Origin: a virus
Length of the DNA stretch: 20,576 nt
Strand: one strand, 5' to 3'
IMG/VR virus record: IMGVR_UViG_3300025889_015601
Span: 1 to 20,576 of that record
Shown here one piece after another: positions 2,247 to 18,360 of the stretch; the stretch's first letter is position 1, and the number at the start of each line of letters is the position of its first letter. The notes beneath the pieces were generated by a model that worked only from the letters and a program-made list of their open reading frames with translations, ran no database searches and was not told the DNA's origin. The translations under genes were made by a program, and so were the position numbers.

Positions 2247-3146
2247 ATGGATAAAACTTTTTATTTTATGGCAGGGCTTCCCCGTTCGGGAAGCACTTTG
2301 CTTTCTTCAATCTTAAATCAAAATCCAAGATTTTATTCTGGACCATCAAGTCCAGTTCTTGGTGCAATGTTTGCCGTAGAGCAAAACTTTATGGGTAATG
2401 AGTTGTACCATGGATATCCAAAACCAGATCAAGTCAGAGAGATCATTGGTAGCATTCCACATCATTTTTATAGTGATGTTCAAAAACCAGTTGTCTTTGA
2501 TAAAAATCGTGCATGGACTGCAAGAGTTCCTTATATTGAAGGGTACATTGGACAACAGGCAAAGATTCTTGTTCCAGTTCGTAGAATAGATGAGATTCTA
2601 ACTTCTATTCTGACAATGATTCATCGAAATCCTTTTCAGGAAGGCCAACCAAGAATTAATTTTGTAGATGAACAATTAATCAAAACTGATATACCTATTA
2701 ATGATTTGAATAGATGTATGTATCTTCTAAATGATGGTGGTATTGTTTATGAGTCACTGAATGCGATTATGATGGGATTCCAACAAAATGTAAGTGACAA
2801 AATGCATTTTGTGGACTATAATGATCTTGTAGATAATCCTGAAAAAATAATGGAAGACATCTATGATTTTCTTGGGGAAGAGTTTTATGATCATGACTTT
2901 GGATCAATCTCAAATATTCATAGGGAAGATGATTTGATAACTTATGGACTAAGTGATATGCATCAGGTTCGTTCTGAGGTCAAGAAAACTTCTTCTCCAC
3001 CAGCATCAATTCTTCCAGAAGAAATTCTTGATCTTTATGAACAAAACAAAAGACGACTTGAGTTTTGGGGAACACCTGATATTGTTACGATAACCCCTAA
3101 GGTAAAGGCACCACCTACAAAGGATAATAATATTATCTTTAAATAA
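2247..3146 (+). CDS. Sulfotransferase family protein (PAPS-dependent)
   Basis: 299 aa, a normal length for a single-domain sulfotransferase. The N-terminus carries the 5'-phosphosulfate-binding loop PRSGSTLLSS (residues 12-21) straight after the first beta strand, as in the P-loop sulfotransferase family that moves sulfate from PAPS to a hydroxyl or amino group. A later stretch, HFVDYNDLVDNPEKIMEDIY, has the typical 'Y-x-D-L ... P ... i' pattern of the family's C-terminal half. The acceptor cannot be read from the sequence. It sits between the tail fibre and two sugar-modifying genes, so a surface glycan, LPS or the fibre itself is the likely target. No clear Shine-Dalgarno precedes the ATG. 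Confidence 0.85.
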   Translation: MDKTFYFMAGLPRSGSTLLSSILNQNPRFYSGPSSPVLGAMFAVEQNFMGNELYHGYPKPDQVREIIGSIPHHFYSDVQKPVVFDKNRAWTARVPYIEGYIGQQAKILVPVRRIDEILTSILTMIHRNPFQEGQPRINFVDEQLIKTDIPINDLNRCMYLLNDGGIVYESLNAIMMGFQQNVSDKMHFVDYNDLVDNPEKIMEDIYDFLGEEFYDHDFGSISNIHREDDLITYGLSDMHQVRSEVKKTSSPPASILPEEILDLYEQNKRRLEFWGTPDIVTITPKVKAPPTKDNNIIFK

Positions 3147-3149
3147 ATA
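3142..3149 (+). promoter_or_regulatory. Late-type promoter box AATAAATA
   Basis: AATAAATA overlaps the stop codon of the sulfotransferase gene and lies 23 bases before the next ATG. T4-like cyanophage late promoters are described as NATAAATA, recognised by the gp55-type late sigma factor. The box is short and AT-rich, so chance occurrence is possible, but its position in the intergenic gap fits. Confidence 0.5.
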
Positions 3150-3171
3150 ATAGAGATTTAACTAAAACAAA

Positions 3172-3519
3172 ATGGCAATTACACACACAAGAACAATTGA
3201 AAATCTTGAAGTCATAAATGATGGAAACAATGTAGTATGTGATATTCAAGTTAAATGGGTATCCTCTGATGATTCTGATGTAGAAAGAACTACAATTGAA
3301 GGTTTTGAAAATTATCAAGTTAATTGTGAAGATGTTACTCCAGATTCTGAAGGTTCTGAAGGATTTGTTGCATTTGAAGACTTGACTGAAGAGATTGTAT
3401 TGGGTTGGATTGCAGATGAACTTGCAGAAGAAAGAGTCACTGCACAACACACTTCTTGGATCAATTCTGTTCTTAATCCCCCAGCACCTGTTACAGTAAA
3501 CAAAGAAACTCCTTGGTAA
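3172..3519 (+). CDS. Small acidic protein, probable late/structural cyanophage protein
   Basis: 115 aa, starting MAITHTRTIENLEVINDG. The N-terminal half looks beta-rich (alternating polar and hydrophobic residues through DGNNVVCDIQVKWVS); the rest is acidic. I recall proteins with this MAITHT...IE.L opening as common small proteins next to tail genes in T4-like cyanophages, but their role is unknown to me. A late-type AATAAATA box lies 23 bases upstream, suggesting virion-phase expression. Function not assigned; accessory structural or tail-associated protein is a guess. Confidence 0.75.
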   Translation: MAITHTRTIENLEVINDGNNVVCDIQVKWVSSDDSDVERTTIEGFENYQVNCEDVTPDSEGSEGFVAFEDLTEEIVLGWIADELAEERVTAQHTSWINSVLNPPAPVTVNKETPW

Positions 3520-3523
3520 TTTT

Positions 3524-4423
3524 ATGACAAAAATTAAGTATTCTATATTTCATTGCCAAGGTGGATTTGGTAAACATATTGCAGCAACAGCAGTAGCTAA
3601 ATGTATTAAAAACAATCATCCAGGCAGACAACTTATTGTTGTTTCTGTCTGGTCTGAAATATTTCAAAATCTTCCATTTGTAGATAGAGTATATCAACTT
3701 GGTAATACAAGTTATTTTTATCAAAGTTATATTGAAAATGAGGATTCAATAATTTTCCATAATGAACCTTATTTCACTACTGATCATATTCATAAAAAAC
3801 TGCCTCTGATTCAAACTTGGTCTAAGATGTATGGATTAGAATATCGAGGTGAAATGCCAGATATTAAATTTAATCCTTTACAGAAAAAGATTGCAAAAGA
3901 ATTTTGGGAAAGTCGTGCAAACGAAAAACCTATTATGGTTCTTCAAACTAATGGTGGAATGTATAATGAACAGAGACCATATCTATGGGCAAGAGATATG
4001 CCTGTGGCACTTGCACAAAAACTTGTAGATCATTATTCCGATAAGTATCATATTTTTCAAGTCAAAAAACCTTCTTCTGAAGCATTAGATGGTGTGGAAG
4101 TGGTTCAAGATCCAATGAGTAATATGGAACTTGTAAGTATCTTACTGAATAGTGAGAAGAGAATACTTATTGATAGTTGCCTACAACACGCAGCAACAGC
4201 ATTGAAATTGCCTTCTGTGGTATTATGGAATGGAACTAGTCCAAAGGTCTTTGGATGGGATATACATACCAATATTCAAGCAGAGAAACCTGCCAACTTT
4301 AAACTTCCAAATAGTTATTTGTTTGACTTTGATTTTACTGGAGTAGAAGCAGAGTATCCTTATGTGGATGAGGATGAAGAAATCTTTAACTTTGATAAAA
4401 TTATAGAAGCAGTTGATAAATGA
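3524..4423 (+). CDS. Glycosyltransferase family 9-like protein
   Basis: 299 aa. The pattern is that of a GT-B fold heptosyltransferase-type enzyme. The N-terminal strand/loop HCQGGFGKHIAATAVAKCI resembles the GGiGD...t.al opening of GT9. A second Rossmann-like half begins near PIMVLQTNGG. The C-terminal segment at roughly residues 212-245 (LIDSCLQHAATALKLPSVVL, followed by WNGTSP) matches the nucleotide-sugar-binding 'DSg..HlAaal..P.v.lfG.t.P' block. It probably transfers a sugar to a surface polysaccharide or virion protein; donor and acceptor are not readable. It overlaps the carbamoyltransferase by 4 bases (ATGA), so the two are probably translationally coupled and act on the same product. 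Confidence 0.75.
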   Translation: MTKIKYSIFHCQGGFGKHIAATAVAKCIKNNHPGRQLIVVSVWSEIFQNLPFVDRVYQLGNTSYFYQSYIENEDSIIFHNEPYFTTDHIHKKLPLIQTWSKMYGLEYRGEMPDIKFNPLQKKIAKEFWESRANEKPIMVLQTNGGMYNEQRPYLWARDMPVALAQKLVDHYSDKYHIFQVKKPSSEALDGVEVVQDPMSNMELVSILLNSEKRILIDSCLQHAATALKLPSVVLWNGTSPKVFGWDIHTNIQAEKPANFKLPNSYLFDFDFTGVEAEYPYVDEDEEIFNFDKIIEAVDK

Positions 4424-6096
4424 ATGTTATTGGACTTTATGGTGCGATTGGATGGAATGTTTTAATTTCTGATAATCCTAGTTTGAGGGAACAAATGAAT
4501 GAAAGTTGGACACATGGTGCAAGTGTGTCTTTATTTTCTAATGGAAATCATGTAACTAGTATCAGTGAAGAAAGACTTACTGGTATTAAATATGATGGAA
4601 ACTTCCCACGAAAATCGATAGACTATTGTTTATCGACAGGGAATCTTTCTAAAGAAGATATTGATGTAGTTGTCGTTCCATCGATGGCAAATATAAACTT
4701 CTATAAGAATTATATTAATCAAACTCTTCAATCTAAACTTAAAAGATATTTCCCAAAAGCAAAAGTTGAGATAGTATCTCATCATATGTGTCATGCATAT
4801 TCATCAGTGTTCTCTTCAGATTACAATGAAGGAACATTTATTACGATGGATAATGCTGGATCTATTTTATTCAATTCTACTGGCAATGCTTTTTCTACAG
4901 AAAATCATTCTATAGGATACTTTAATAAAGAAAAAGGTATTTTTAGGTATCATCCCGGTATTCCTGAAATGAATAACTTCGGAAACTATTATTGGGCTTG
5001 GGCATATCAAATTTATGTTGAGATGGTTCAGAAACAAATTGATATTACTGATCCAAAGTATCGTGAGACATTCTGTGGCAAGGTCATGGGTCTTTCGGCA
5101 TATGGTAATGTAAAAGAGTTTGAAAAAGATTATCGACAAACTTTTGAAGGTATTCCTTCAGTTACATTCAACTCTTTTCCTGGACAGGATTATGTTTATG
5201 GAAACATGAGTCCAGAAAACAAAGCAAGAACTCTTCAACATAATTTTGAACAGGGAATGCTTGTTTATATGAAGACACTCAAAGAACAAGGATATATTGA
5301 TGAAAATCTTTGCCTTGCTGGTGGCGTGTTTCTGAATATTCTCACAAACTCTGTCATTCGTAAGAATGAAATTGTAAAGAATATGCACATCCCACCATTT
5401 CCTGATGATACTGGATTATCATTTGGTGCTGCATGTTATGGTGTTTTTAAGGCAAAAGAAAAAGTAACTCTCCCACACAATATTTCACTTCTTGGACGCA
5501 CTTATAGTGAAGAAGAGATTGAGGAAGCACTTAAAGGGAAAAACTATAAGAAGTTTGATAACTTTGAAGAACTGTGTGAGAAGGTTGCTAAACTTCTTGC
5601 TGATAATAAAATTGTTGGGTGGTTTCAAAATCGTTCAGAGTTTGGACCTAGAGCACTTGGTTCTCGTTCAATTCTGATGAACCCATCAATAAAAGAAAAT
5701 AAAAAGACAATCAATACTCGCATTAAACATAGAGAAGAGTGGCGTCCATTTGCAGGTATTATGCTTGAAGAATATCAAGAAGAATACTTTATAGATGTAT
5801 ATCCAAATGAATATATGCTATACTCTCTGGTAGTAAAACCACATCAAAGAAAGAAACTTGGTGCGATCACACATAAAGATTTCTCATGTAGAATTCAAAC
5901 TGTAAATGAAAAGTTGCATCCAGAAGTTGCAACACTTCTTCAAAAATATAATAAAGAAACTGATTGTCCGGTTCTTTTAAATACTTCTTTCAATGATAAT
6001 GGTCAACCAATTGTAGAGAATCCAAAGGATGCGATCAAAACCTTTGAAAGTATTGATCTAGATTGTCTTGTAATTGGAAATTATTTTTTAATCTGA
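4420..6096 (+). CDS. Carbamoyltransferase, NodU/CmcH/TobZ family
   Basis: 558 aa, full family length. Carbamoyltransferases of this type make carbamoyl-AMP and pass the carbamoyl group to a sugar or antibiotic hydroxyl. Seen in the N-terminal Kae1-like domain: an ISEER motif (48-52), the metal-binding HHMCHAYSS (121-129), an acidic DNAGS turn (144-148) and CLAGGVFLN (298-306). In the C-terminal domain: FGPRALGSRSIL (from residue 408) and CPVLLNTSFNDNGQPIV, both typical of the YrdC-like half. Start ATG overlaps the previous stop. With the GT9-like and sulfotransferase genes it forms a three-enzyme sugar-decoration set beside the tail fibre. Such genes occur in several cyanophages; the acceptor is not known. 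Confidence 0.92.
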   Translation: MNVIGLYGAIGWNVLISDNPSLREQMNESWTHGASVSLFSNGNHVTSISEERLTGIKYDGNFPRKSIDYCLSTGNLSKEDIDVVVVPSMANINFYKNYINQTLQSKLKRYFPKAKVEIVSHHMCHAYSSVFSSDYNEGTFITMDNAGSILFNSTGNAFSTENHSIGYFNKEKGIFRYHPGIPEMNNFGNYYWAWAYQIYVEMVQKQIDITDPKYRETFCGKVMGLSAYGNVKEFEKDYRQTFEGIPSVTFNSFPGQDYVYGNMSPENKARTLQHNFEQGMLVYMKTLKEQGYIDENLCLAGGVFLNILTNSVIRKNEIVKNMHIPPFPDDTGLSFGAACYGVFKAKEKVTLPHNISLLGRTYSEEEIEEALKGKNYKKFDNFEELCEKVAKLLADNKIVGWFQNRSEFGPRALGSRSILMNPSIKENKKTINTRIKHREEWRPFAGIMLEEYQEEYFIDVYPNEYMLYSLVVKPHQRKKLGAITHKDFSCRIQTVNEKLHPEVATLLQKYNKETDCPVLLNTSFNDNGQPIVENPKDAIKTFESIDLDCLVIGNYFLI

Positions 6097-6628: not shown

Positions 6629-6778
6629 ATGAATAAAAAAGAAACACTCACTCTTGCTATGCAACAAATTGAAACCACACTTGATTTACTCAAAGGTAAT
6701 GACTACGAAACTTATATGAATCTCAAACTTATTTCAGTTTATTATGAGTTACAACGACAACTTGACAAACTTTTTTAA
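6629..6778 (+). CDS. Small helical hypothetical protein (49 aa)
   Basis: ATG at 6629, stop 6776-6778; starts MNKKETLTLAMQQIETTLDL. Regular spacing of Leu/Ile/Met suggests one or two amphipathic helices. I recall similar ~50-aa proteins in many T4-like cyanophages, function unknown. Its last codons contain the -35 hexamer of the promoter for the next gene. Confidence 0.6.
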   Translation: MNKKETLTLAMQQIETTLDLLKGNDYETYMNLKLISVYYELQRQLDKLF

Positions 6779-6790
6779 CTCACCTATACT
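6762..6790 (+). promoter_or_regulatory. Near-consensus sigma70 promoter, TTGACA-17-TATACT
   Basis: TTGACA at 6762-6767 and TATACT at 6785-6790 are separated by exactly 17 bases, and the gene at 6813 starts 22 bases after the -10. The -35 lies inside the end of the preceding ORF. It should be used by the unmodified host RNA polymerase, i.e. early. Confidence 0.8.
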
Positions 6791-6812: not shown

Positions 6813-7046
6813 ATGAAATTTATTTACATTGTTGACCATTATGTGCCATTCCCCTCATCAGAATACGGCGGAGTATGGAATGTTGTTGCAGAAAATGATG
6901 AAGAATGTTTTGATTTAATTGTTGAAGAAGATGGTAAGTATTATTCTCATTATTTCAGTGAATTGAGACAGAATATCAACAAGGCAGATAAATATTCTTT
7001 GTTAGATGAACTACCATCTAAAGTTGTAACCTCTTTCTTAACTTAA
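6813..7046 (+). CDS. Hypothetical protein (77 aa)
   Basis: MKFIYIVDHYVPFPSSEYGG begins a small acidic protein with a beta-strand-like opening (FIYIVDHY) and an acidic middle (AENDEECFDLIVEEDG). No motif recognised. It is the first gene after the strong early promoter at 6762-6790 and is followed after two bases by the CP12-like gene, so both are probably co-expressed early. Confidence 0.7.
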   Translation: MKFIYIVDHYVPFPSSEYGGVWNVVAENDEECFDLIVEEDGKYYSHYFSELRQNINKADKYSLLDELPSKVVTSFLT

Positions 7047-7048: not shown

Positions 7049-7279
7049 ATGTCACAACCACGTCAAAGGGATGTTAATGATCCCCTCTATGACCCAAATG
7101 ATAAGTACAATGCCTATAAGGTAGACTTACATACGAATGAAGCACATTCACCTGATGAGTGGGATCCCCTCACAGAAGGTAAACTATCAGACCCATCAGA
7201 ACGACACAAAGATAAAGTGTTAGATGAATTCTGCGACACTCACCCTGGTTCCCCAATGTGTAAAGTTTTCGATGACTGA
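7049..7279 (+). CDS. CP12-like protein (C-terminal GAPDH-binding motif)
   Basis: 76 aa. The C-terminus LDEFCDTHPGSPMCKVFDD matches the end of CP12, where two Cys eight residues apart (C-x8-C) with a Pro between are followed by a basic/aliphatic pair, an aromatic residue and Asp. In CP12 this part forms a disulfide hairpin and inserts into the GAPDH active site, shutting down Calvin-cycle flux as a GAPDH-CP12-PRK complex. Cyanophages are known to carry cp12 genes. The CP12 N-terminal Cys pair and the AWD.VEEL core are not seen; instead there is a disordered DPLYDPNDKYNAY-type N-terminus. So it may be a reduced GAPDH-only inhibitor or a convergent tail. Expressed from the promoter at 6762, with an 8-base overlap into the next gene. 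Confidence 0.55.
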   Translation: MSQPRQRDVNDPLYDPNDKYNAYKVDLHTNEAHSPDEWDPLTEGKLSDPSERHKDKVLDEFCDTHPGSPMCKVFDD

Positions 7280-7463
7280 TAAACAAAAAGACGCACTCAA
7301 TCTTATGATTGAAAGTGTAATCAAACCTGACAGTAGTCTCCGTGGTTGTGCATACAATCAAGGGTGTTATGATGAATTGATGGAATGGCGTCAAAAGATG
7401 CTTGACCTACTCTATAGTTATGAAAAAGATGGAATTTCCACATCAGCCACCACAGGGCTATGA
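7272..7463 (+). CDS. Small hypothetical protein (63 aa)
   Basis: The ATG at 7272 overlaps the end of the CP12-like gene by 8 bases; a longer reading from 7224 would overlap far more. The product starts MTDKQKDALNLMIESVIKPD and has two likely helices with Cys pairs in between (GCAYNQGCYDE). No family recognised. Part of the overlapping early operon. Confidence 0.6.
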   Translation: MTDKQKDALNLMIESVIKPDSSLRGCAYNQGCYDELMEWRQKMLDLLYSYEKDGISTSATTGL

Positions 7464-8961: not shown

Positions 8962-9135
8962 ATGTCTCTAGCCTACGCTCAGAAGTCCAAGTATAGAGTT
9001 ACGATCGAACTCGATGTATTTGAAGATTTTGACGCTCACAATATCCAGTGGGACAAACTATTGGATATTCAAGGTAATGAAAGCGTTACTGCATATGTTG
9101 AGGAGTTGAGTGCACCTGACCACTTCTTCTCCTGA
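8962..9135 (+). CDS. Small hypothetical protein (57 aa)
   Basis: Starts MSLAYAQKSKYRVTIELDVF and ends APDHFFS at TGA 9133-9135. The KYRVTIELDVFEDFDAHNIQ stretch predicts a beta strand then an acidic helix. It lies directly behind a strong promoter and before a hairpin, forming its own transcription unit. I recall related cyanophage proteins of this size; function unknown. Confidence 0.65.
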   Translation: MSLAYAQKSKYRVTIELDVFEDFDAHNIQWDKLLDIQGNESVTAYVEELSAPDHFFS

Positions 9136-9141
9136 TAATAT

Positions 9142-9176
9142 CGGGGGTGATAAATATAATTATATTATCACCTCCG
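9142..9176 (+). terminator. Long hairpin (about 17 bp) between transcription units
   Basis: CGGGGGTGATAA (9142-9153) pairs with TTATCACCTCCG (9165-9176), continued by TATAA/TTATA across one bulged A. It gives a near-continuous stem with almost no loop. No T-run follows, so it is not a classical terminator, but it is the strongest structure in this part and sits just after the 8962 gene. It may act in both directions or protect RNA ends. Confidence 0.55.
9149..9156 (+). promoter_or_regulatory. Late-type promoter box GATAAATA inside the hairpin
   Basis: GATAAATA matches the cyanophage late consensus NATAAATA and lies in the left arm of the 9142-9176 hairpin, 60 bases before the ATG of the basic protein gene. 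Late transcripts starting about 10 bases downstream would lack the left arm and therefore the hairpin. Confidence 0.55.
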
Positions 9177-9216
9177 TCAATCTGTTGGAGTTAGGAACAC
9201 AACTACAGAAAAAAGA

Positions 9217-10014
9217 ATGAAGAACCTACAACTTTTTTTAGAACTTGCCTCTGAAAGAGCACAAGCTCTTAAAGATCGTCAAGATAAATTCAAAGAAACT
9301 CAAGCCAATTCTGCTGGAGAGAGTGGTTCAAGAACTCTTGATTCACCAGAAACTAGAGACAAAACCGTAAGTGCCCGAGAAAGATATAAAAGGGGAATGG
9401 TTGAGGTTTATGACCCTGAAATGGGTACAGTTCGTGGTCCTCGTGCAAAACGAAGCACTGCTGATCGTAGAGCACCTGGAACTAAACCAAGAGTCAAGGC
9501 AGTTGGTGGTGGTAAGACTGCACCAGTAGATTATAAACCACAAGGTGAGAAACCTAATAGAAGTAGAACAACCTCACAAAGAACACAACAACCACAACAG
9601 GAACGTGGTTCTGCAGAAGTCAAACAATCATATGCAGAGAAGATTAAGGCAGATAGAAGAGCTGCAGCCAAGGCAAGAGCCGCTGCCAGAAAGTCTGGTG
9701 GTGAAGTAAAAACAACGACCACATCTTCTAAAGATGCTGAAAAGAAAGCAGACCAGTTGTTAAAGACCAAGAAGGCAGAACCAAAGAAGACTGAACCTGC
9801 AAAACCACGTAAAAAGTATGCTCATGCTGATGGTGGTGGTATGACTAGGAAAGAAAGAGACGCAACTAGAAATAAAGAAATAGGTCAGAGTAGAAAAGAT
9901 GCCAAGGCTCAAATGAGGTCTGAGTTTGAGAAGAAACATGGTAGAAAACCAAACAAAAAAGAGGCAATGCAACTGACCGCCAAGGCTCATGCTGCTGCCA
10001 AAGCCCTATCATAA
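9217..10014 (+). CDS. Highly basic, low-complexity protein (265 aa)
   Basis: MKNLQLFLELASERAQALKD starts with a short amphipathic helix, followed by ~230 residues rich in Lys, Arg, Ala, Gln and Thr (for instance KADRRAAAKARAAARKSGG, DAEKKADQLLKTKKAEPKK). The protein is probably disordered and strongly positively charged. Such composition suggests nucleic-acid binding: a DNA-condensing internal capsid protein or a histone-like factor. The late-type promoter box upstream supports a virion or late role. The C-terminal part (MRSEFEKKHGRKPNKKEAMQ) looks more ordered. No family assigned; the charge alone does not prove DNA binding. Confidence 0.75.
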   Translation: MKNLQLFLELASERAQALKDRQDKFKETQANSAGESGSRTLDSPETRDKTVSARERYKRGMVEVYDPEMGTVRGPRAKRSTADRRAPGTKPRVKAVGGGKTAPVDYKPQGEKPNRSRTTSQRTQQPQQERGSAEVKQSYAEKIKADRRAAAKARAAARKSGGEVKTTTTSSKDAEKKADQLLKTKKAEPKKTEPAKPRKKYAHADGGGMTRKERDATRNKEIGQSRKDAKAQMRSEFEKKHGRKPNKKEAMQLTAKAHAAAKALS

Positions 10015-10030
10015 CTATTGGGCAGTCATG

Positions 10031-10091
10031 TGCAGGGGTGTATTTGACATAAGACCCAATCTACGATATAATAAATAATAATACCCCTGCA
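10031..10091 (+). promoter_or_regulatory. Inverted repeat enclosing the endonuclease promoters
   Basis: TGCAGGGGT (10031-10039) and ACCCCTGCA (10083-10091) are perfect 9-bp complements; TATT/AATA adds 4 bp after a small internal loop. The right arm ends 9 bases before the ATG at 10101. Long transcripts entering from upstream would fold this stem next to the ribosome site; transcripts from the promoter inside the loop would not. Confidence 0.65.
10044..10072 (+). promoter_or_regulatory. Consensus sigma70 promoter TTGACA-17-TATAAT, overlapping a late-type box
   Basis: TTGACA (10044-10049) and TATAAT (10067-10072) are both perfect, with a 17-base spacer. AATAAATA (10070-10077) overlaps the -10 and fits the late consensus NATAAATA. 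The GIY-YIG gene starts 28 bases after the -10. Confidence 0.8.
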
Positions 10092-10100
10092 AATTGAAGA

Positions 10101-10772
10101 ATGAATTACTATACCTACGCCTATCTTCGCGAAGATGGAACACCTTACTACATAGGCAAAGGGAGAAAAAATAGAATAAACAATCAACATGTAAATGTAC
10201 CTGTACCACCAAAAGATAGACGGGTCTATCTTAAACAGGGACTGTCTGAGATTGATGCATATAGGCACGAAATGTACCTGATAGATGTACTTGGCCGTAA
10301 AGATTTGGGTACAGGTATGTTAATAAACAGAAGTCCTGGTGGTGAAGGTAACTCAGGGCCAAGACCTTCTATGAAAGGTAAAAATAATCCAAGATATGGA
10401 AAACCAAGTACAATTCGTGGTAAAATATGGGTAAATAACGGACTTGACCATAAGATGGTATTTGAAGATGCAATACCTGATGGATGGGTAAATGGACGCC
10501 TGAATGTTCATGAAAATAAAGAACAGTTTAGACAACAGGGTTTGAATAACAATCCTAATGCAAAACACTACCGAATTGTGTTCATTGATGGTAGTGAGGT
10601 TGAGTGTTACCAACTATCTAAATGGGCCAGGGAAAATAATATAAGTTATGGTATATGTAAAGCTATACTTCACCAGACAAGATACAATAAAAGGAAGTAT
10701 ATTAAGAAGAACGCATCCACTAACATCAAGAGCATACATGAGGTGACTACAGAGTTACTCACCTCCAATTGA
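10101..10772 (+). CDS. GIY-YIG homing endonuclease with NUMOD-type DNA-binding modules
   Basis: 223 aa. The GIY-YIG nuclease domain spans residues ~1-80: Y6-A7-Y8 in place of GIY, Y17-I18-G19, then R25, H30, catalytic E57 (YRHEMYLID) and N76 (LINRSPGGEGN). A NUMOD3-like basic segment follows (SGPRPSMKGKNNPRYGKPST, 85-104), then a W-x-NNG...IPDGWVNGR module (110-133), and a C-terminal helix-turn-helix-like stretch (YQLSKWARENNISYGICKAI). All expected catalytic residues are present, so it is probably active. It is free-standing: no intron or split host gene is visible. It nicks or cuts a cognate site to spread itself. The last five codons plus stop are supplied by the first copy of the repeated promoter cassette (LLTSN-stop). 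Confidence 0.9.
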   Translation: MNYYTYAYLREDGTPYYIGKGRKNRINNQHVNVPVPPKDRRVYLKQGLSEIDAYRHEMYLIDVLGRKDLGTGMLINRSPGGEGNSGPRPSMKGKNNPRYGKPSTIRGKIWVNNGLDHKMVFEDAIPDGWVNGRLNVHENKEQFRQQGLNNNPNAKHYRIVFIDGSEVECYQLSKWARENNISYGICKAILHQTRYNKRKYIKKNASTNIKSIHEVTTELLTSN

Positions 10773-10782
10773 CTCCTATAGT
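10754..10782 (+). promoter_or_regulatory. Promoter-like cassette, copy 1 of 11
   Basis: GTTACTCACCTCCAATTGAC is followed, as in every copy, by the -10-like box at bases 24-29 (TATAGT here). GTTACT occupies the -35 position at 17-base spacing. This copy overlaps the last codons and TGA stop of the endonuclease gene and lies 19 bases before the ATG at 10802. The leader has no Shine-Dalgarno. Confidence 0.7.
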
Positions 10783-10801
10783 ATAAGACCACCATTTTAT
10801 T

Positions 10802-11689
10802 ATGACATTAACACACCTCTCTCATCCCGAAGATACTATTTTGACTGGTGATTTGACAGTATTTGATTTACTTTATGATGTGGGTGATATCTCCATGAAA
10901 ATGGATGGTATGTCGTTAGTATGGGGAACCAATCCTGCTAATGGTAAGTTTTTTGTGTGTACAAAAAGTGCATTTAATAAGAAAAAGATTCGTCTATGTT
11001 ATACTACTGAAGACATTCTGACCCATTTTGGTCATCAAATTGAAGTTGTAGATATTCTATCTAATTGTCTCAAGTATCTTCCACGTACAGAAAACATTTA
11101 CTGGGGTGATTGGCTTGGTTTCGGTCACACTGACACACTGACACAAAATACCCTCACGTATGTATTTCCTGAGGTTATTGAACAGAGACTAGTGATTGCA
11201 CCACATACACAAGTCTTTCTGACTCAAGATAATATTATGTGTAATGCAGTTTGTAAACCAGTCACAGAAACATTTGAGAATAGTGATGTAATCAAGTGGG
11301 TACAACCTGCTGTTGACCGTATTTACGGTGGTTATGATGCACCAAACATCAACACTGACAACATCAAATTTCTGACTGACAAAGAGGCATATCAAGCCAA
11401 GATGGGCATCAATGCTCTCATCAAGTCAGGTCAGTTTGTTGATGATGCATCACTGACTGACATTCTAGGTTGTCCTTTCCTTGCCAATCTGTATCAGTTG
11501 GTGTTAGATATCAAATATGATTTGATGGATAGTTTGATTATCAATGACGCACCAAAGTCATATCTTCCTAATGGCAAAGAAACTGATGGTGAAGGTTATG
11601 TCTTCCATTCTGTAACCTATGGCTCAGTGAAGTTGGTCAAACGTGCAGAGTTTGCGTATGCTAACTTCAACCATGGTTTTGGTAACTGA
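10802..11689 (+). CDS. Ligase-fold nucleotidyltransferase-like protein (DUF6267-like)
   Basis: 295 aa. Motifs of the covalent nucleotidyltransferase (ligase/capping) fold appear in order: K33-M-D-G (motif I, the AMP-accepting Lys), GKFFVCTKSAFNK (49-61), GDWLG (102-106, motif III position), EGYVF (264-268, motif IV) and KLVKR (277-281, motif V). I recall a phage family (DUF6267) with the same K.DG...GKFFV.TKS.FNK signature. It may seal or adenylylate RNA or DNA; no OB-fold or known partner domain is visible, so the substrate is open. Start 19 bases after the cassette -10. Another ligase (T4 Rnl1 type) lies at 19353. Confidence 0.65.
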   Translation: MTLTHLSHPEDTILTGDLTVFDLLYDVGDISMKMDGMSLVWGTNPANGKFFVCTKSAFNKKKIRLCYTTEDILTHFGHQIEVVDILSNCLKYLPRTENIYWGDWLGFGHTDTLTQNTLTYVFPEVIEQRLVIAPHTQVFLTQDNIMCNAVCKPVTETFENSDVIKWVQPAVDRIYGGYDAPNINTDNIKFLTDKEAYQAKMGINALIKSGQFVDDASLTDILGCPFLANLYQLVLDIKYDLMDSLIINDAPKSYLPNGKETDGEGYVFHSVTYGSVKLVKRAEFAYANFNHGFGN

Positions 11690-11694
11690 TTATT

Positions 11695-11856
11695 ATGACA
11701 CAATTTAATGTAAAAGGTGCATGGACCGATCGTAATGGTCGTAGGCATAACTTTGAGATACAAACTGATAGTGCGGACAGATCTTTGATACGGGATATTG
11801 TAGAATCACAGTATCCAACAGAGAGAGTTGTAATTAACTCGGTTCGTCAACGGTAA
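11695..11856 (+). CDS. Small hypothetical protein (53 aa)
   Basis: MTQFNVKGAWTDRNGRRHNF opens a small beta-rich protein ending in TERVVINSVRQR. It starts five bases after the ligase-like gene stop and ends with two TAA stops that run straight into cassette copy 2. The strand pattern (FNVKGAW, RHNFEIQ, VVINSV) resembles a small beta-alpha-beta domain; no family is assigned. Confidence 0.6.
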   Translation: MTQFNVKGAWTDRNGRRHNFEIQTDSADRSLIRDIVESQYPTERVVINSVRQR

Positions 11857-11860
11857 TAAA

Positions 11861-11889
11861 GTTACTCACCTCCAATTGACCCCTATAGT
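11861..11889 (+). promoter_or_regulatory. Promoter-like cassette, copy 2 of 11
   Basis: Same 20-base invariant core; -10-like TATAGT at 11884-11889; 16 bases to the helicase ATG. The preceding gene's TAATAA stop directly abuts it. Confidence 0.7.
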
Positions 11890-11905
11890 ATAACACCACA
11901 ATTTT

Positions 11906-13084
11906 ATGATCACTCTTCGCCCACATCAAAACGAAGCCCGTGACGCAATGTATGTCAACAGCAAAGGCCAGATACTGGTCCCGACAGGAGGCGGGAAGAC
12001 ACTGATTGCAATCACTGATGCAATGAAACGGTTCGAGGTAAATGTTCCTCGCACTATTGTAGTTGTGGCTCCTAGACTACTCTTGGCCAATCAGTTGTGC
12101 AGTGAGTATATGGAACACATCACCAATGCTAATGTTTTGCATGTGCATTCTGGTGACACAAAACACTTCAGCACTACAAAGTCTGAACATATCAAACTGT
12201 TTGTTGATATGTGTCAAACAGTCCGTGAACATGTTATTATCTTTACCACATATCACTCTCTCCACCGTGTTCAGGAGTCTGGTATTGCGGTAGATACCAT
12301 TTACTTTGATGAGGCACATAACTCCTGTCAGAATAACTTCTTTGGGCCCACTGAGTATTTCAGTAAGAAGGCTGATCGCACTTATTTCTTTACTGCTACC
12401 CGTAAGACTTCAGTCACACCAAAAAAACATGGAATGAATGATGTTGACACTTATGGTCAGGTAATTGCACGTGTGTCTGCACCAACTCTGGTTGATGGAG
12501 GTTACATCTTGCCACCTAAAGTCAAGGTGATTGAGATGGATAAGGTTGACAAAAAGTCACTCACACCTTATCTTGAGAGCAACAATGTCCTTGCGTCTAT
12601 TGATGAACTAGACATCAAAAAGATTCTAGTATGTGTCAAGACCACACGACAACTGCAAAATATCTTTATGACAGACTTTGCAGAACAACTCAAGGAACGT
12701 GGTTATTCTTACCTCTATATTACCAGTAAGACCGGTGCAGTTGTTGATGGTAAGAAGGTCAAGCGTGAGGAGTTCTTTGATACACTCAATGCATGGGGCA
12801 AAGATGTAGATAAGAAGTTTGTTGTTTTGCACAGGTCCATACTTTCAGAAGGTATTAATTGCTCAGAGCTTGAAGGTGTTGTATTCCTTCGTAATATGGA
12901 CACAGTAGAGATGTTACAGACTGTGGGCCGAGTAATTCGTGTGGGCAGTAAATCGAAGACATGCGGTATGCTATGTGTGCCAGTATATAATAATATCGGA
13001 GTATCCACCGAGAGAGCATTGCAACGTTGTGTTGACATTGTATTCGAGAAAGGAGAAATGTGCGACAGCATTTCTCGCCGGTAA
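11906..13084 (+). CDS. SF2 DNA/RNA helicase (UvsW-like type)
   Basis: 392 aa with the full set of superfamily 2 motifs: RPHQNEA near the N-terminus (Q-like, 5-11), Walker A PTGGGKT (26-32), IVVVAPRLLL (Ia), DEAH (135-138, motif II), FTATRK (162-167, motif III), HRSILSEGINCSELEGVVFL (309-328, motifs IV-V) and QTVGRVIRVG (338-347, motif VI). The overall layout matches phage UvsW-type helicases, though it lacks the extra N-terminal domain of T4 UvsW (587 aa). Likely role: unwinding branched DNA or R-loops in replication/recombination, or RNA remodelling. It is driven by cassette copy 2, with no Shine-Dalgarno. A small hairpin (13053-13060 with 13069-13076) lies in its last codons. Confidence 0.88.
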   Translation: MITLRPHQNEARDAMYVNSKGQILVPTGGGKTLIAITDAMKRFEVNVPRTIVVVAPRLLLANQLCSEYMEHITNANVLHVHSGDTKHFSTTKSEHIKLFVDMCQTVREHVIIFTTYHSLHRVQESGIAVDTIYFDEAHNSCQNNFFGPTEYFSKKADRTYFFTATRKTSVTPKKHGMNDVDTYGQVIARVSAPTLVDGGYILPPKVKVIEMDKVDKKSLTPYLESNNVLASIDELDIKKILVCVKTTRQLQNIFMTDFAEQLKERGYSYLYITSKTGAVVDGKKVKREEFFDTLNAWGKDVDKKFVVLHRSILSEGINCSELEGVVFLRNMDTVEMLQTVGRVIRVGSKSKTCGMLCVPVYNNIGVSTERALQRCVDIVFEKGEMCDSISRR

Positions 13085-13085
13085 T

Positions 13086-13140
13086 CGGCCCAGTCATACC
13101 AAGGGATCTGGGAGTATCATAAATTGATTTTTCCATATCG
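13086..13140. repeat. 55-bp duplicated intergenic element, copy 1
   Basis: CGGCCCAGTCATACC onward is repeated at 18962-19016 with the same length, no gaps and about 6 mismatches in 55; the first 24 bases are identical. Weak similarity (AGAATTAT.GAAAAA) continues some 40-50 bases downstream in both. On the minus strand both copies can be read as ATG plus a peptide MEK(S/T)(I/V)Y..PRSLGMTGP. Its role is unknown. Confidence 0.8.
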
Positions 13141-13199
13141 AACCCCTTTATGACCTAACACACCTTCAGTCACATAGAATTATTGAAAAAAGAGTTTTT

Positions 13200-13406
13200 A
13201 TGTCTTTCCACCACACAAATTCAAACATTCTTGATACAAAACCAGGAGTATTGCCAATCGTTATTGATGAGAACCTGGTAGCAATACCTGTGGCGGGTTC
13301 AACAACTAAACTGATGGTGATACATAATGGACAACCGGTCAAAGTATGTCGCAACCGTCAATCAGCACTCAATTTGATAGATAAGTTAAGAAAACGAAGG
13401 AAATAA
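13200..13406 (+). CDS. Small basic hypothetical protein (68 aa)
   Basis: MSFHHTNSNILDTKPGVLPI begins a protein with two beta-hairpin-like stretches (PIVIDENLVAIPVAG, TKLMVIHNGQPVKVC) and a basic tail, LIDKLRKRRK. The tail could contact nucleic acid. It follows the duplicated 55-bp element and ends with TAA abutting cassette copy 3. AAAAAAGAG eight bases before the ATG may serve as a weak ribosome site. Function unknown. Confidence 0.65.
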   Translation: MSFHHTNSNILDTKPGVLPIVIDENLVAIPVAGSTTKLMVIHNGQPVKVCRNRQSALNLIDKLRKRRK

Positions 13407-13407
13407 A

Positions 13408-13436
13408 GTTACTCACCTCCAATTGACCACTATAGT
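13408..13436 (+). promoter_or_regulatory. Promoter-like cassette, copy 3 of 11 (abuts a start codon)
   Basis: Invariant core with TATAGT at 13431-13436. Unlike all other copies, an ATG follows at once (13437), so a transcript starting 6-7 bases after the -10 would begin inside the ORF. Confidence 0.7.
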
Positions 13437-13619
13437 ATGACATACAATTCAAATCCTTACATCCAAAACCTGCTCGAAATGGGTTACGACAAACAAGACG
13501 TACAAGTTGCGTCTACAATGTTTCAAAAGAAAACATTCCCATGTGTTATTCATGGTCGTCAATTTGACACTGAAGAACAGTATTATGCTGAACTTCATGA
13601 ATACATGAGTGGCATGTGA
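13437..13619 (+). CDS. Small hypothetical protein (60 aa)
   Basis: MTYNSNPYIQNLLEMGYDKQ opens a helical protein ending ELHEYMSGM. The first ATG touches the cassette -10 box, so it can only be used by read-through RNA; the in-frame ATG at 13479 (MGYDKQDV) would fit a transcript from this cassette. Its TGA overlaps the next ATG (TGATG). IQNLLEMGYDKQDVQVASTM looks like a small UBA-like helical segment; no firm family. Confidence 0.55.
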   Translation: MTYNSNPYIQNLLEMGYDKQDVQVASTMFQKKTFPCVIHGRQFDTEEQYYAELHEYMSGM

Positions 13620-13750
13620 TGAACACACCTAATTGGAAGCATCACTCCAAAAAAGATAAGAAGACCAAGGGTACCTGTAAGGGTATTCTAAGGGGGCGTA
13701 AGCAGTCTCTAAGGTCACTCAAACTCAAACTAAGTACCAAATCACCATGA
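13619..13750 (+). CDS. Very basic micro-protein (43 aa)
   Basis: MNTPNWKHHSKKDKKTKGTC and a Lys/Arg-rich remainder ending STKSP. It is coupled on both sides: TGATG with the gene before and ATGA with the gene after, which argues strongly that it is real. The charge (about 15 Lys/Arg) suggests RNA or DNA binding, similar in style to a ribosomal or anti-termination peptide; that is a guess from composition. Confidence 0.65.
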   Translation: MNTPNWKHHSKKDKKTKGTCKGILRGRKQSLRSLKLKLSTKSP

Positions 13751-13959
13751 ACATTGACAATCAACTTCTATCTGTTATTGAAGGTCTTGATTGGGCATTA
13801 GAAGAGTATAAAGATGCAATGGATGATCCAACCAAAGGTTATTCTTTCTATACTGGTTACTCTCGTGCGACAATAGAAACTGCCAAAGACAGACTATTAA
13901 CAATTGTGGAAAACTATCGTAATCTTACACAGGAGGAAAAGTTACTCACCTCCAATTGA
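13747..13959 (+). CDS. Small acidic helical protein (70 aa)
   Basis: MNIDNQLLSVIEGLDWALEE followed by a Tyr/Gly-rich turn (DDPTKGYSFYTGYSRATIE) and a second helix. The C-terminal residues LLTSN and the TGA stop are encoded by cassette copy 4. GGAGG at 13932-13936 could pair with CCTCC in the same cassette. Function unknown. Confidence 0.6.
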   Translation: MNIDNQLLSVIEGLDWALEEYKDAMDDPTKGYSFYTGYSRATIETAKDRLLTIVENYRNLTQEEKLLTSN

Positions 13960-13969
13960 CCACTATATT
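13941..13969 (+). promoter_or_regulatory. Promoter-like cassette, copy 4 of 11
   Basis: Invariant core; variant -10 TATATT at 13964-13969. It supplies the C-terminus and stop of the gene before. 22 bases to ATG 13992. Confidence 0.65.
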
Positions 13970-13991
13970 GTAACCCCTACACTTGACAATC

Positions 13992-14201
13992 ATGAACAAT
14001 TCATCTACTGTACTTAAAGAACTTCAATCACTTCAAAAAACTTATAAAGTTCAGAACTTTAAGTTTACCTCTAGTCAACAGACACGATATGATGAACTTC
14101 TTGAACTTCGTCGTGCATTCATTGCATATTGGCAAGAAAATGGTATGGTTTGGACTGGACCTAGTAATGTAGGTAAGGCTAAAACAGAAGCCGCAGCTTG
14201 A
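13992..14201 (+). CDS. Small hypothetical protein (69 aa)
   Basis: The ATG at 13992 is preferred to an in-frame TTG at 13983. MNNSSTVLKELQSLQKTYKV is followed by a basic helix (YDELLELRRAFIAYWQENG). The pattern suggests two helices; no motif is known. TGATG overlap with the membrane micro-protein that follows. Confidence 0.6.
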   Translation: MNNSSTVLKELQSLQKTYKVQNFKFTSSQQTRYDELLELRRAFIAYWQENGMVWTGPSNVGKAKTEAAA

Positions 14202-14287
14202 TGGACATTACTAACACATCATTGTTACTCACTGGCATCATGTTTGTCGGTGGTATTATTCTCTTCTTCAAAGCAATTTACCGATGA
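14201..14287 (+). CDS. Single-pass membrane micro-protein (28 aa)
   Basis: MDITNTSLLLTGIMFVGGII then LFFKAIYR: one transmembrane helix with a positively charged C-terminus (N-out, C-in by the positive-inside rule). TGATG overlap before it, ATGA overlap after it. Too short for family assignment. Confidence 0.55.
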   Translation: MDITNTSLLLTGIMFVGGIILFFKAIYR

Positions 14288-14412
14288 TTGAAACTCTCTC
14301 TTTTGAATATGGTAACAGCGTTACCATTTTAGGTTTGGTTGGTGTTATCTCAACTGCCATCATTCTTGTAACCGTCTTTACTCGATACAACAATTCACCT
14401 CTGCGTAAGTAA
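14284..14412 (+). CDS. Single-pass membrane micro-protein (42 aa)
   Basis: MIETLSFEYGNSVTILGLVG followed by a hydrophobic helix (VISTAIILVTVF) and a basic tail, TRYNNSPLRK. Its size and layout resemble small photosystem or phage membrane peptides, but I see no specific match. Coupled by ATGA to the 28-aa membrane peptide, so the two may form a pair. Confidence 0.55.
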   Translation: MIETLSFEYGNSVTILGLVGVISTAIILVTVFTRYNNSPLRK

Positions 14413-14420
14413 TCATTACT

Positions 14421-14738
14421 ATGAAATTTGATCCTAAACAAACAGAAACATTTGAGACTGAAGGTTCAACATTTGAGTACAATCATGCTAGGTCAGAATA
14501 TCTCGCAGAAGATATTCTTGGCCAGTATGAAGACCAAATGAAGACTATGGCCAAAGCATATAAAAAGGCAAAGAAAGAACATAAGAAAACATATTATGGA
14601 CGTAACCTATTGTCTCTTCATTCAGAATGGAATGTTGAAGACAATGATGAAACTTTGTATCTCATCTTTGATGATGAAGAAGAATGTTTCACTGATGTCA
14701 AAACTGATAACGAATACTACTCAAATCCAAACGATTAA
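14421..14738 (+). CDS. Acidic hypothetical protein (105 aa)
   Basis: MKFDPKQTETFETEGSTFEY, then a Lys-rich helix (MKTMAKAYKKAKKEHKKTYY) and a very acidic C-terminal part (LYLIFDDEEECFTDVKTDNE). The alternating charge blocks suggest a protein-interaction role, possibly a DNA-mimic-like tail; not assignable. Ends in TAA abutting cassette copy 5. Confidence 0.65.
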   Translation: MKFDPKQTETFETEGSTFEYNHARSEYLAEDILGQYEDQMKTMAKAYKKAKKEHKKTYYGRNLLSLHSEWNVEDNDETLYLIFDDEEECFTDVKTDNEYYSNPND

Positions 14739-14739
14739 A

Positions 14740-14768
14740 GTTACTCACCTCCAATTGACCCCTGTAGT
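14740..14768 (+). promoter_or_regulatory. Promoter-like cassette, copy 5 of 11
   Basis: Invariant core; -10 is TGTAGT (14763-14768), one change from TATAGT and possibly weaker. 19 bases to ATG 14788. Confidence 0.65.
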
Positions 14769-14787
14769 GTAACCACGCAATCAACTT

Positions 14788-15129
14788 ATGACAATCACAC
14801 AAACCAAAGCAGAATATCAAACAGAATGTTTGATTGAAGTTCTTAACAATGAGTGGAAGGTATTTGCTATTGAGAATGGCCGTAACTTTCATGAGTATCT
14901 AACAATGGAAGTTGGTCGCAAATATATCAAAGTGTGGCAATCAAAATGCTATGATGGTGTTGTAAGAGAGGGTCGCAGTTGTTTTATGTTTGTAGATAAA
15001 GAAACTGGTGCATGTTATAAACCAGCCAGCCACAAGGCACCAGCCAAAGGCATTAGATTTTATATTGAATCACTTCTAGATACACCTGAAGTTGTTGATC
15101 AATACGGTTCATTCCTTTATCGTCGCTGA
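14788..15129 (+). CDS. Hypothetical protein (113 aa)
   Basis: MTITQTKAEYQTECLIEVLN starts a mixed alpha/beta protein with Tyr/Trp/Lys-rich strands (GRKYIKVWQSKCYDGVV, SCFMFVDKETGACYKPASHK). The DKETGACYKPAS..AP..GIR segment resembles a conserved phage domain I remember only as hypothetical. TGATG overlap with a membrane peptide downstream. Confidence 0.65.
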   Translation: MTITQTKAEYQTECLIEVLNNEWKVFAIENGRNFHEYLTMEVGRKYIKVWQSKCYDGVVREGRSCFMFVDKETGACYKPASHKAPAKGIRFYIESLLDTPEVVDQYGSFLYRR

Positions 15130-15206
15130 TGTTTACCATTATTCGTTTCTTTTATTATATTGCCGTCGGGGCATTCTTTGTAACCATTATCAAACACTTT
15201 TCCTAA
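15129..15206 (+). CDS. Single-pass membrane micro-protein (25 aa)
   Basis: MFTIIRFFYYIAVGAFFVTI plus IKHFS: almost the whole peptide is one aromatic-rich membrane helix. TGATG overlap with the upstream gene supports translation. Function unknown. Confidence 0.5.
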   Translation: MFTIIRFFYYIAVGAFFVTIIKHFS

Positions 15207-15211
15207 CTATC

Positions 15212-15415
15212 ATGTCACTCTCTGCAACTTGTGTCTCTAAACTTGTTGACGCACTCAAATCTGATGTTATTAACCACATCTATGGAGATGAGCGTTATAT
15301 GGAAATTATGCATGACTTAGTTTCTGATGCATTACGTGCCAAACTTGGTGATGTTGATGAGGATTTGTTCTATGAACTCGGTATGTGTTTAATTGACCGT
15401 ATTGAACTGAAATAA
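15212..15415 (+). CDS. Small helical hypothetical protein (67 aa)
   Basis: The ATG at 15212 is the sensible start (an upstream in-frame start at 15092 would lie inside another gene). MSLSATCVSKLVDALKSDVI and the acidic C-terminal helices (DLFYELGMCLIDRIELK) suggest a compact helical protein. Ends in TAA abutting cassette copy 6. Confidence 0.6.
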   Translation: MSLSATCVSKLVDALKSDVINHIYGDERYMEIMHDLVSDALRAKLGDVDEDLFYELGMCLIDRIELK

Positions 15416-15416
15416 A

Positions 15417-15445
15417 GTTACTCACCTCCAATTGACCCCTATAGT
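15417..15445 (+). promoter_or_regulatory. Promoter-like cassette, copy 6 of 11
   Basis: Invariant core; TATAGT at 15440-15445; 21 bases to ATG 15467. The leader (ACCACGCAATCA) matches those after copies 5 and 9. Confidence 0.7.
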
Positions 15446-15466
15446 GTAACCACGCAATCAATTCAA

Positions 15467-15649
15467 ATGGAGTTTAGAATCATTGTTCCATCTGCTCGAT
15501 ATGAAGATGTAACCACAAATGATTTGGATCAAGCATGGCGTATCTGTTGTGATCTATCTGAAGAGTTTGGATATGCAGAGGTTAAACGTAATCTTTGTGG
15601 CCCAGAGCCAATTCTAGGATCTTTCACTAACGGTAAATCAGACAAATGA
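15467..15649 (+). CDS. Small hypothetical protein (60 aa)
   Basis: MEFRIIVPSARYEDVTTNDL predicts a beta strand then a helix (DQAWRICCDLSEEFGYAEVK). No family recognised. First gene behind cassette copy 6; ATGA overlap with the next reading frame at 15646. Confidence 0.6.
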   Translation: MEFRIIVPSARYEDVTTNDLDQAWRICCDLSEEFGYAEVKRNLCGPEPILGSFTNGKSDK

Positions 15650-15753
15650 TCTACAACATCGCATCAGACATCAAGACCCGCAGAATTGTGTGGATTGATT
15701 CAACAACAATGAAGACAATGACCGCAGTTCAAGTATCAGCCTCAACCCGCTAA
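15646..15753 (+). CDS. Short ORF (35 aa), N-terminal part of a probably frameshifted gene
   Basis: MIYNIASDIKTRRIVWIDST begins with an ATGA overlap and a plausible strand-rich sequence, then reads poorly (MKTMTAVQVSASTR) to TAA at 15751-15753. In the +1 frame the sequence from 15722 on looks like genuine protein and ends exactly where cassette copy 7 begins, so the original gene probably ran 15646-15826. Confidence 0.5.
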   Translation: MIYNIASDIKTRRIVWIDSTTMKTMTAVQVSASTR

Positions 15754-15826
15754 TCTATGGGCATTTGTAATACAATTTCTGTGGTGGTTACAGTATTACA
15801 ATGTAAGGCCCTTTGTCGGATATTAA
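15722..15826 (+). pseudogene. Detached C-terminal part of the 15646 gene (+1 frame)
   Basis: Open from just after a TGA (15719-15721) to TAA at 15824-15826, with no start codon. It reads PQFKYQPQPANLWAFVIQFL then WWLQYYNVRPFVGY: a proline-rich linker and a Trp/aromatic membrane-type helix. Its stop coincides with the TAA that opens cassette copy 7, as for most real genes here. Confidence 0.45.
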
Positions 15827-15827
15827 A

Positions 15828-15856
15828 GTTACTCACCTCCAATTGACCACTATAGT
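15828..15856 (+). promoter_or_regulatory. Promoter-like cassette, copy 7 of 11
   Basis: Invariant core; TATAGT at 15851-15856; 18 bases to ATG 15875. Confidence 0.7.
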
Positions 15857-15874
15857 GTAACCACGACAAGCATT

Positions 15875-16072
15875 ATGACATTTCTCAACTGGGTCCAAGA
15901 AGCAATCGGTTGTAAAGTAGAAGATGAAAAAACTGGAATGGTTCATACCATTACCGGTGGTAAGTTTCTCGCCGATTCACCTATGTGGCCAATGGTTCAA
16001 CTTACAGATGAGAATGGAGTTGTAAGATATGCAACTCTTGATAGGTTTGAAGAACTGGTTTCTGTCGGGTAA
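15875..16072 (+). CDS. Small hypothetical protein (65 aa)
   Basis: [20 protein letters not shown] followed by [20 protein letters not shown] and a C-terminal strand-helix. It looks like a small SH3- or KOW-like beta barrel ([36 protein letters not shown]), of the kind that reads through DNA or RNA grooves; this is inferred from pattern only. Flanked by cassette copies 7 and 8, so it is a single-gene module. Confidence 0.6.
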
Positions 16073-16076
16073 TAAA

Positions 16077-16105
16077 GTTACTCACCTCCAATTGACCACT
16101 ATAGT
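16077..16105 (+). promoter_or_regulatory. Promoter-like cassette, copy 8 of 11
   Basis: Invariant core; TATAGT at 16100-16105; 17 bases to ATG 16123. It heads the pentapeptide-repeat operon. Confidence 0.7.
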
Positions 16106-16122
16106 ATAGACACCACAATTTT

Positions 16123-16383
16123 ATGATCACCACATACAACGGATACGAAATCAAACCAGGTGCTAATCTTAAGAATGCTAGTCTTAAGGGTGCTAATCTT
16201 GAGGATGCTGATCTAAGAGGTGCTAATCTTGAGAATGCTAATCTATGGGGTGCTATTCTTAGGGGTGCTGATCTTAAGGGTGCTATTCTTAAGGGCGCTA
16301 ATCTAAGGGGTGCTAATCTAAGGGTTGCTAACCTTAAGGATGCTAATCTTAAGGGAACTATTTTAGAAGGACTTAAACTATGA
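16123..16383 (+). CDS. Pentapeptide-repeat protein 1 (86 aa)
   Basis: A head segment ([16 protein letters not shown]) is followed by about 14 pentapeptides of the A(N/D)LxG type and a tail, GTILEGLKL. Such repeats coil into a right-handed four-sided beta helix. Known members include DNA-mimicking gyrase protectors (Qnr, MfpA), but the A(N/D)LxG pattern is widespread in cyanobacteria with no single function. First of five tandem genes; ATGA overlap with the next. Its 3' half is duplicated perfectly at 17026-17157. Confidence 0.85.
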
Positions 16384-16982
16384 TAGTCAACGGATACGAA
16401 CTTAAACCGGGTGTTGATCTTAAGGATGCTGATCTTAGGAATGCTAATCTTGAGAATGCTGATCTTAAGGGTGCTTATCTTAAGGGTGCTTCTCTATTTG
16501 GTGCCAATCTTAAGGGTGGTAATCTTGAGGATGCTAATCTAAGGGGTGCTAATCTAAGGGGTGCTGATCTTAGGGATGCTAATCTTAAGAGTGCTAATCT
16601 AAGGGGTGCTGATCTATGGGGTGCTAACCTTAAGGGTGCTGATCTTGAAGGTGCTTATCTTGAAGGTGCTTATCTTGAGGTTGCTAATCTTGAGGGTGCT
16701 GATCTTGAGAATGCTAATCTTGAGGGTGCTTATCTAAGTTCTGCTAACCTAAGTGGTTCTGACCTAAGGCGTGCTAATCTTGAGGGTGCTTCTCTATGGG
16801 GTGCTAACCTTAAGGGTGCTGATCTTAAGTGTGCTAACCTTAAGGGTGCTAAACTAAGGGGTGTTAATCTTAAGTGTGCTTATCTTAAGTGTGCCAATCT
16901 TGAGGGTGCTAATCTTAAGGGTGCTAATCTTAAGGGTGCTAATCTTAAGGGAACTATTTTAGAAGGACTTATAAACTCATGA
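16380..16982 (+). CDS. Pentapeptide-repeat protein 2 (200 aa)
   Basis: Head [14 protein letters not shown], about 36 pentapeptide units and tail [10 protein letters not shown]. This is the longest of the array: nine full turns of a pentapeptide helix if all units fold. The DNA repeat is a 15-base unit (AATCTTAAGGGTGCT and variants) kept nearly constant even at third codon positions, which indicates recent expansion or gene conversion rather than old divergence. ATGA overlaps on both sides. Confidence 0.85.
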
Positions 16983-17143
16983 ACATCAACGGATACGAAC
17001 TTAAACCGGGTGCTAACCTTAAGGATGCTGATCTTAAGGGTGCTATTCTTAAGGGCGCTAATCTAAGGGGTGCTAATCTAAGGGTTGCTAACCTTAAGGA
17101 TGCTAATCTTAAGGGAACTATTTTAGAAGGACTTAAACTATGA
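16979..17143 (+). CDS. Pentapeptide-repeat protein 3 (54 aa)
   Basis: Head [14 protein letters not shown] and only about seven pentapeptides before the tail GTILEGLKL. From 17026 on it is identical to the end of protein 1, so it looks like a short recombinant between a head of one gene and the end of another. ATGA overlaps join it to both neighbours. Whether so short a helix folds alone is doubtful; it may be a recombination by-product that is still translated. Confidence 0.7.
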
Positions 17144-17727: not shown

Positions 17728-17742
17728 CCACTGAACCCTTTA

Positions 17743-17762
17743 TAGGGCATCCAAATGCCTTA
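17743..17762 (+). other. Small hairpin after pentapeptide gene 4
   Basis: TAGGGCAT (17743-17750) pairs with ATGCCTTA (17755-17762) around a CCAA loop, with one G-T pair. It overlaps the TATAAT box at 17761. It may be a weak terminator or operator. Confidence 0.4.
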
Positions 17763-18357: not shown

Positions 18358-18360
18358 AAG

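Follow-up and report, generated by a model that had tools for sequence, protein, structure and literature searches.

The CxxxPxxxxC end shared by CP12, GapB and ADK3 is reported as a GAPDH-binding element. CP12 in its oxidised state is reported to insert its tail into the active site of GAPDH, where a near-terminal acid meets an arginine of the coenzyme site; in Chlamydomonas CP12 it is the penultimate acid that meets the GAPDH arginine (PMC4436894, PMC3838966). Crystals show the CP12 tail only, as one helix with a disulfide (PMC3906501). Classical CP12 from plants and freshwater cyanobacteria (3b1j, 3qv1, 6gfo) carries an N-terminal Cys pair and an AWD_VEEL core, both absent from the protein described here; the common part is the tail that becomes ordered on GAPDH. 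GapB and ADK3 likewise have this tail without the CP12 N-terminal half, although in them it is fused to an enzyme, whereas the present protein is free and small.

Cyanophages encode two kinds of CP12-related protein. Ordinary cyanophage CP12 (T4-GC 337, PHROG 627; P-HM2, P-SSM4, S-SSM7) also has the C-x3-P-x4-C hairpin and an acidic end and lacks the Cys pair; it differs from our protein in its pair of confidently predicted N-terminal helices and in the Glu that precedes its last Cys. The second kind is T4-GC 63 / PHROG 2603 (Syn1_235, PSSM2_066, S-CAM1 SXBG_00058), the family of the present protein, which is a sequence variant within it. Table 3 of Sullivan et al. 2010 (PMC3037559) contains a row "337 + 63" assigned to CP12, with entries of 231 bp for Syn1 and 267 bp for P-SSM2. 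Since Syn1_235 and PSSM2_066 have exactly these lengths and each carry the T4-GC 63 label in their database entries, the CP12 grouping is already in print. The link between T4-GC 63 and CP12 is therefore not new; the table itself separates the two kinds only through their cluster numbers. In the open-licence literature searched, neither locus tags nor accessions nor the PHROG number led to a paper on this gene, and the host copies, phage double carriers and Glu replacement described below were not found in print there.

The gene and its locus

The DNA analysed, hereafter the window, comprises the 20,576 bases of a virus record. Its DNA similarity to Synechococcus myoviruses (RB11-B and S-B05 among them) is fragmentary, and its host is plausibly a marine picocyanobacterium. 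The features of the locus are as follows.

6762..6790, + strand: sigma-70-like promoter match TTGACA-17-TATACT (11/12 consensus)
6813..7046, + strand: small gene between the promoter and the CP12-tail gene, 77 aa, PHROG 21741 (ORF, PHROG match)
7049..7279, + strand: CP12-tail protein gene, 76 aa, PHROG 2603 / T4-GC 63 family (ORF and PHROG profile)
7049..7198, + strand: N-terminal part, residues 1-50, family-specific, predicted largely disordered (no hhalign CP12 match; AlphaFold)
7199..7276, + strand: CP12-like tail, residues 51-76 (hhalign, conservation table)
7232-7234 and 7259-7261, + strand: C62 and C71, with Pro66 between them (conservation table)
7272..7463, + strand: next gene, PHROG 495, overlapping the CP12-tail stop codon; the mechanical ORF starts at 7224

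An earlier, sequence-only reading had drawn attention to positions 7220-7279, which encode residues 58-76 and the stop codon of the 76-aa ORF, and had described a C-x8-C-KVFDD tail. That tail is real: the protein, whose C-terminal sequence is ...LDEFCDTHPGSPMCKVFDD, ends in C-x3-P-x4-C followed by five residues (KVFDD). Among the 322 stop-to-stop ORFs of at least 30 aa in the window, the CP12-tail gene's own is the only one with a C-terminus of this kind, and 100 base-shuffled windows yielded nine such C-termini in 34,248 ORFs (0.09 per window).

The gene starts two bases after the 77-aa gene. The same reading had placed it behind an early promoter, one of the strongest in the window. The site at 6762 is a good consensus match, equal second on the + strand (11/12); it precedes 6813-7046, and the CP12-tail gene comes second. 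The label "early" is presumptive. Across the whole window, a 12/12 sigma-70-like site on the + strand at 10044-10072 outranks it; that match precedes a 223-aa ORF at 10101-10772. Promoter-like sites in the 3 kb of this locus show no excess over shuffled sequence (12 vs 13.0, sd 3.9). Among the 84 loci with enough upstream DNA, a TTGACA-17 site lies at -281 to -288 in 17, the window copy included and mostly from the window's clade, and a site of at least 10/12 occurs within 320 bases upstream in 21, again mainly from that clade; it is thus not a family feature. Expression timing of a family member was reported in none of the papers listed by a literature search. The ordinary cp12 of P-HM2 is reported to belong to the middle genes and, in light, to be one of the most highly expressed (PMC5082946).

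A conserved family of cyanomyoviruses

The PHROG 2603 profile matches the protein over its full length (residues 1-76, E 9.2e-40). With E values of up to 10 admitted, the phage collection yields 163 matching records, 71 of them at least 60% identical, including S-CAM1 (82.9%), Sf-CH11, Syn1, S-RIM44 and ACG-2014f; among the matches listed, the relatives are annotated "hypothetical", and the lowest-ranking matches comprise ordinary CP12s plus a few unrelated phages. Viral contigs contributed 143 confirmed relatives, and the sequences of 80 of these, together with six isolates and the window protein, form the 87 window-type members compared here. All 87 keep C-x3-P-x4-C, a penultimate Asp and a final Asp or Glu. 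By a simple counting method applied to 55 distinct sequences, dN/dS comes to 0.10 for the whole protein, with 0.14 in residues 1-50 and 0.05 in residues 51-76. The family is under strong purifying selection, with the tail its most constrained part. A chance ORF is ruled out by the retention of both Cys and the Pro in 87/87 members, by the dN/dS of about 0.10 and by the rarity of such tails in shuffles.

Of 21 records scanned with the CP12 profile, 12 held the T4-GC 63 kind only, seven of them isolates with records of at least 190 kb (S-CAM1, Syn1, ACG-2014f, S-B43, P-SSM2, Sf-CH11 and Sf-FP1); seven isolates held ordinary CP12 only, and two viral contigs held both. Both kinds occur together in six of the 80 viral contigs, on the same strand and 1.0-1.8 kb apart, with 70 of the 80 holding at least 1.7 kb from the gene's start onward. 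The gene talC is present in all ten records of at least 190 kb that carry the family, the two-gene carrier G002 included, and a transaldolase in 15 of 18 records, among them all seven T4-GC 63-only isolates. The T4-GC 63 family is conserved in cyanomyoviruses and spread through T4-like cyanophages. Because the gene is labelled "hypothetical", Syn1, S-CAM1, ACG-2014f and P-SSM2 look CP12-less in databases, and counting the tail-only form changes which cyanophages seem able to act on host carbon fixation.

Homology of the tail to CP12

Aligned with ordinary phage CP12 by hhalign, the family scored 46.0 over 21 tail columns, compared with a best score of 20.5 in 200 column shuffles, and the last 26 columns gave a probability of 96.8. 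Pfam CP12 (PF02672) is matched by 27/27 aligned members and any other family by at most four. The profile search proposed in the earlier reading does find CP12 on the tail of the window protein, covering profile positions 43-70 only, but the score falls below the Pfam cut-off (20.2 vs 22.7 bits).

PSSM2_066 of P-SSM2 belongs to PHROG 2603 (E 1.9e-31), exceeds the Pfam CP12 cut-off with 29.9 bits and shares a 47-column alignment with the window family. The P-SSM2-type branch to which it belongs, comprising P-SSM2, AG-345-E08 and 37 environmental relatives (37 of the 80 loci read), aligns with phage CP12 over 48 columns. Judged by these alignments, this branch is a bridge between the window family and CP12. 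With homology beyond shuffles and a bridging branch over the cut-off, the proposal that the tail fits the GAPDH-binding end of CP12 was borne out, and profile comparison identifies the last ~26 residues as homologous to that tail. The tail also matches a 23-residue CP12 peptide, SFQQYCDDNPDAAECRIYDD, solved in PDB entry 3zdf, which we take to be a GAPDH complex. Transthyretin-like PDB matches (best E 0.06, residues 22-62) were rejected, having no backing from the family profile.

One position departs from CP12. The Glu at -7, before the last Cys, is invariant in the CP12s compared (93/93 phage, 80/80 genome-scan) and is replaced in 87/87 window-type members, by Met in 92% and Gln in 8%. P-SSM2-type tails have Glu before the last Cys in 36/36 and Tyr at -3 in 36/36; at -3, window-type tails have Phe. 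With this Glu lost, GAPDH affinity or the target itself may have changed in window-type tails. No mention of Glu69 of CP12 was found in our literature search.

N-terminal half and predicted structure

The absence of the PRK-side N-terminal half, also claimed from the sequence, was corroborated: this part has neither an hhalign match to phage CP12 nor confident helices. The family minus its tail scores 11.3 against phage CP12, compared with 46.0 for the whole, and the window protein has neither the AWD_VEEL core nor the N-terminal helices. AlphaFold gave it a mean pLDDT of 55.2 and no confident fold, its helices being limited to one in the tail (53-64) and a short one at 21-29, as against 79.4 and two confident N-terminal helices for a CP12 control.

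The N-terminal Cys pair is indeed missing, but this is no special reduction, since the phage and picocyanobacterial CP12s compared also lack it: the pair is absent from 80/80 genome-scan CP12 loci and from each of the 74 distinct ordinary phage CP12s; one additional Cys occurs in two of the latter. As a mark of special truncation, the missing pair is thus ruled out. According to the predicted structures, what distinguishes the window protein is the missing helical half rather than the missing Cys pair.

Chromosomal copies in picocyanobacteria

The expectation that hosts lack the tail-only form was overturned. In 300 Cyanobiaceae genomes, sampled from the family of one Prochlorococcus, the family profile found close relatives in 19 genomes at 20 places (E 1e-16 to 1e-28); a class-wide draw of 388 genomes returned eight, all among the same 19. 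Several host copies lie on single contigs of 2.2-3.3 Mb and are on that account chromosomal. All 19 copy-bearing genomes also encode a full CP12 (over the Pfam cut-off, full profile), so that, with phages and hosts both holding the two genes, the tail-only form is not simply a CP12 substitute.

Identity between the window protein and the 19 distinct host copies ranges from 49 to 67%. Two of the 19 keep Glu at -7, and the last residue is Cys in nine, Glu in nine and Asp in one. In a tree of 79 rows and 76 columns, the host copies fall together in a single clade (100/100) among phage sequences, which would agree with transfer from phage to host, but the alignment is too short to settle the direction. 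A GAF-domain gene lies near the host copy in 7 of 12 host regions. One host genome (G267) has two copies ~15.7 kb apart, and an AOX/PTOX-type alternative-oxidase gene (L267, 8703-9326) follows a host copy by ~350 bases.

Proposed function and alternatives

Conserved in the tail are the two cysteines with the proline between them, the positions of hydrophobic and aromatic residues, and the acidic end, a pattern from which we infer a redox-gated plug for GAPDH without the PRK half. This is the best reading, and we give it an even chance. During infection, the two tail cysteines would close into a disulfide, the tail would fold onto the host photosynthetic GAPDH (Gap2), and, in the manner of CP12 and the GapB tail, the acidic end would be inserted into the coenzyme/active site. 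Because the helical N-terminal half is absent, GAPDH would be occupied without PRK being held. The reductive Calvin-cycle step would thereby be throttled and carbon would run through the pentose phosphate pathway, a role suggested by the talC carried by the same phages. If the tail alone plugs GAPDH, the family provides a natural experiment on what portion of CP12 is required. Counting against the plug are the Pfam score below cut-off, the loss of Glu at -7, the Cys-ending host tails, the low pLDDT and the double carriers.

An alternative is an antagonist: a tail acting as a decoy of host CP12 would block the GAPDH/CP12/PRK complex and free part of the cycle, or PRK. The lack of the PRK-side half and the coexistence with full CP12 in 19/19 host genomes and the six phage contigs favour such a role; against it, CP12 binding by itself is reported to be able to inhibit GAPDH, so the tail alone may still inhibit. 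We regard the decoy as rather unlikely. The substitution at -7 in 87/87 members, the Cys ends of 9/19 host copies and the conserved, family-specific N-terminal half (dN/dS 0.14) would instead suit a re-used tail, now a tag under redox control for some other NAD(P)-dependent enzyme or another partner, as in GapB/ADK3. The tail is otherwise CP12-like, however, and Glu at -7 persists in two host copies and in 36/36 P-SSM2-type tails; we regard the tag, too, as rather unlikely. A convergent or decayed tail that has no CP12 function and is kept for another small-protein role would account for a similarity confined to 21 columns and a sub-threshold Pfam score, but it is very unlikely given 200 shuffles far below the real score, a bridging branch over the cut-off and a tail that is the most constrained part of the protein.

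A broader extension of the GAPDH plug is distinctly doubtful: a second, PRK-blind CP12 lineage may exist in cyanophages and some picocyanobacteria beside ordinary CP12, competing for GAPDH and uncoupling it from PRK control, as a regulator in hosts and a tool in phages, and hosts may have acquired the gene from phages. If so, control of GAPDH would be separated from control of PRK within one cell. The chromosomal copies beside full CP12 raise the question of what a tail-only form does in an uninfected picocyanobacterial cell.

Other features of the window

Sulfotransferase and carbamoyltransferase genes lie at 2247-6096, with small or unassigned genes between them, one of 299 aa without a Pfam match. 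A run of pentapeptide-repeat genes spans 16123-18340 (16380-16982 confirmed by Pfam), and a T4 RNA ligase 1-like gene (PF09511) occupies 19344-20495. A dispersed intergenic repeat with the core GTTACTCACCTCCAATTGACC extends over 10754-20556, with 11 core matches, 10 of them exact and none expected by chance; the 56-nt repeat family built on this core has eight copies in 9000-16200. At some copies, the repeat contains the stop codon of the preceding gene, and exact copies also occur in 9 of 278 loci, from the window's clade.
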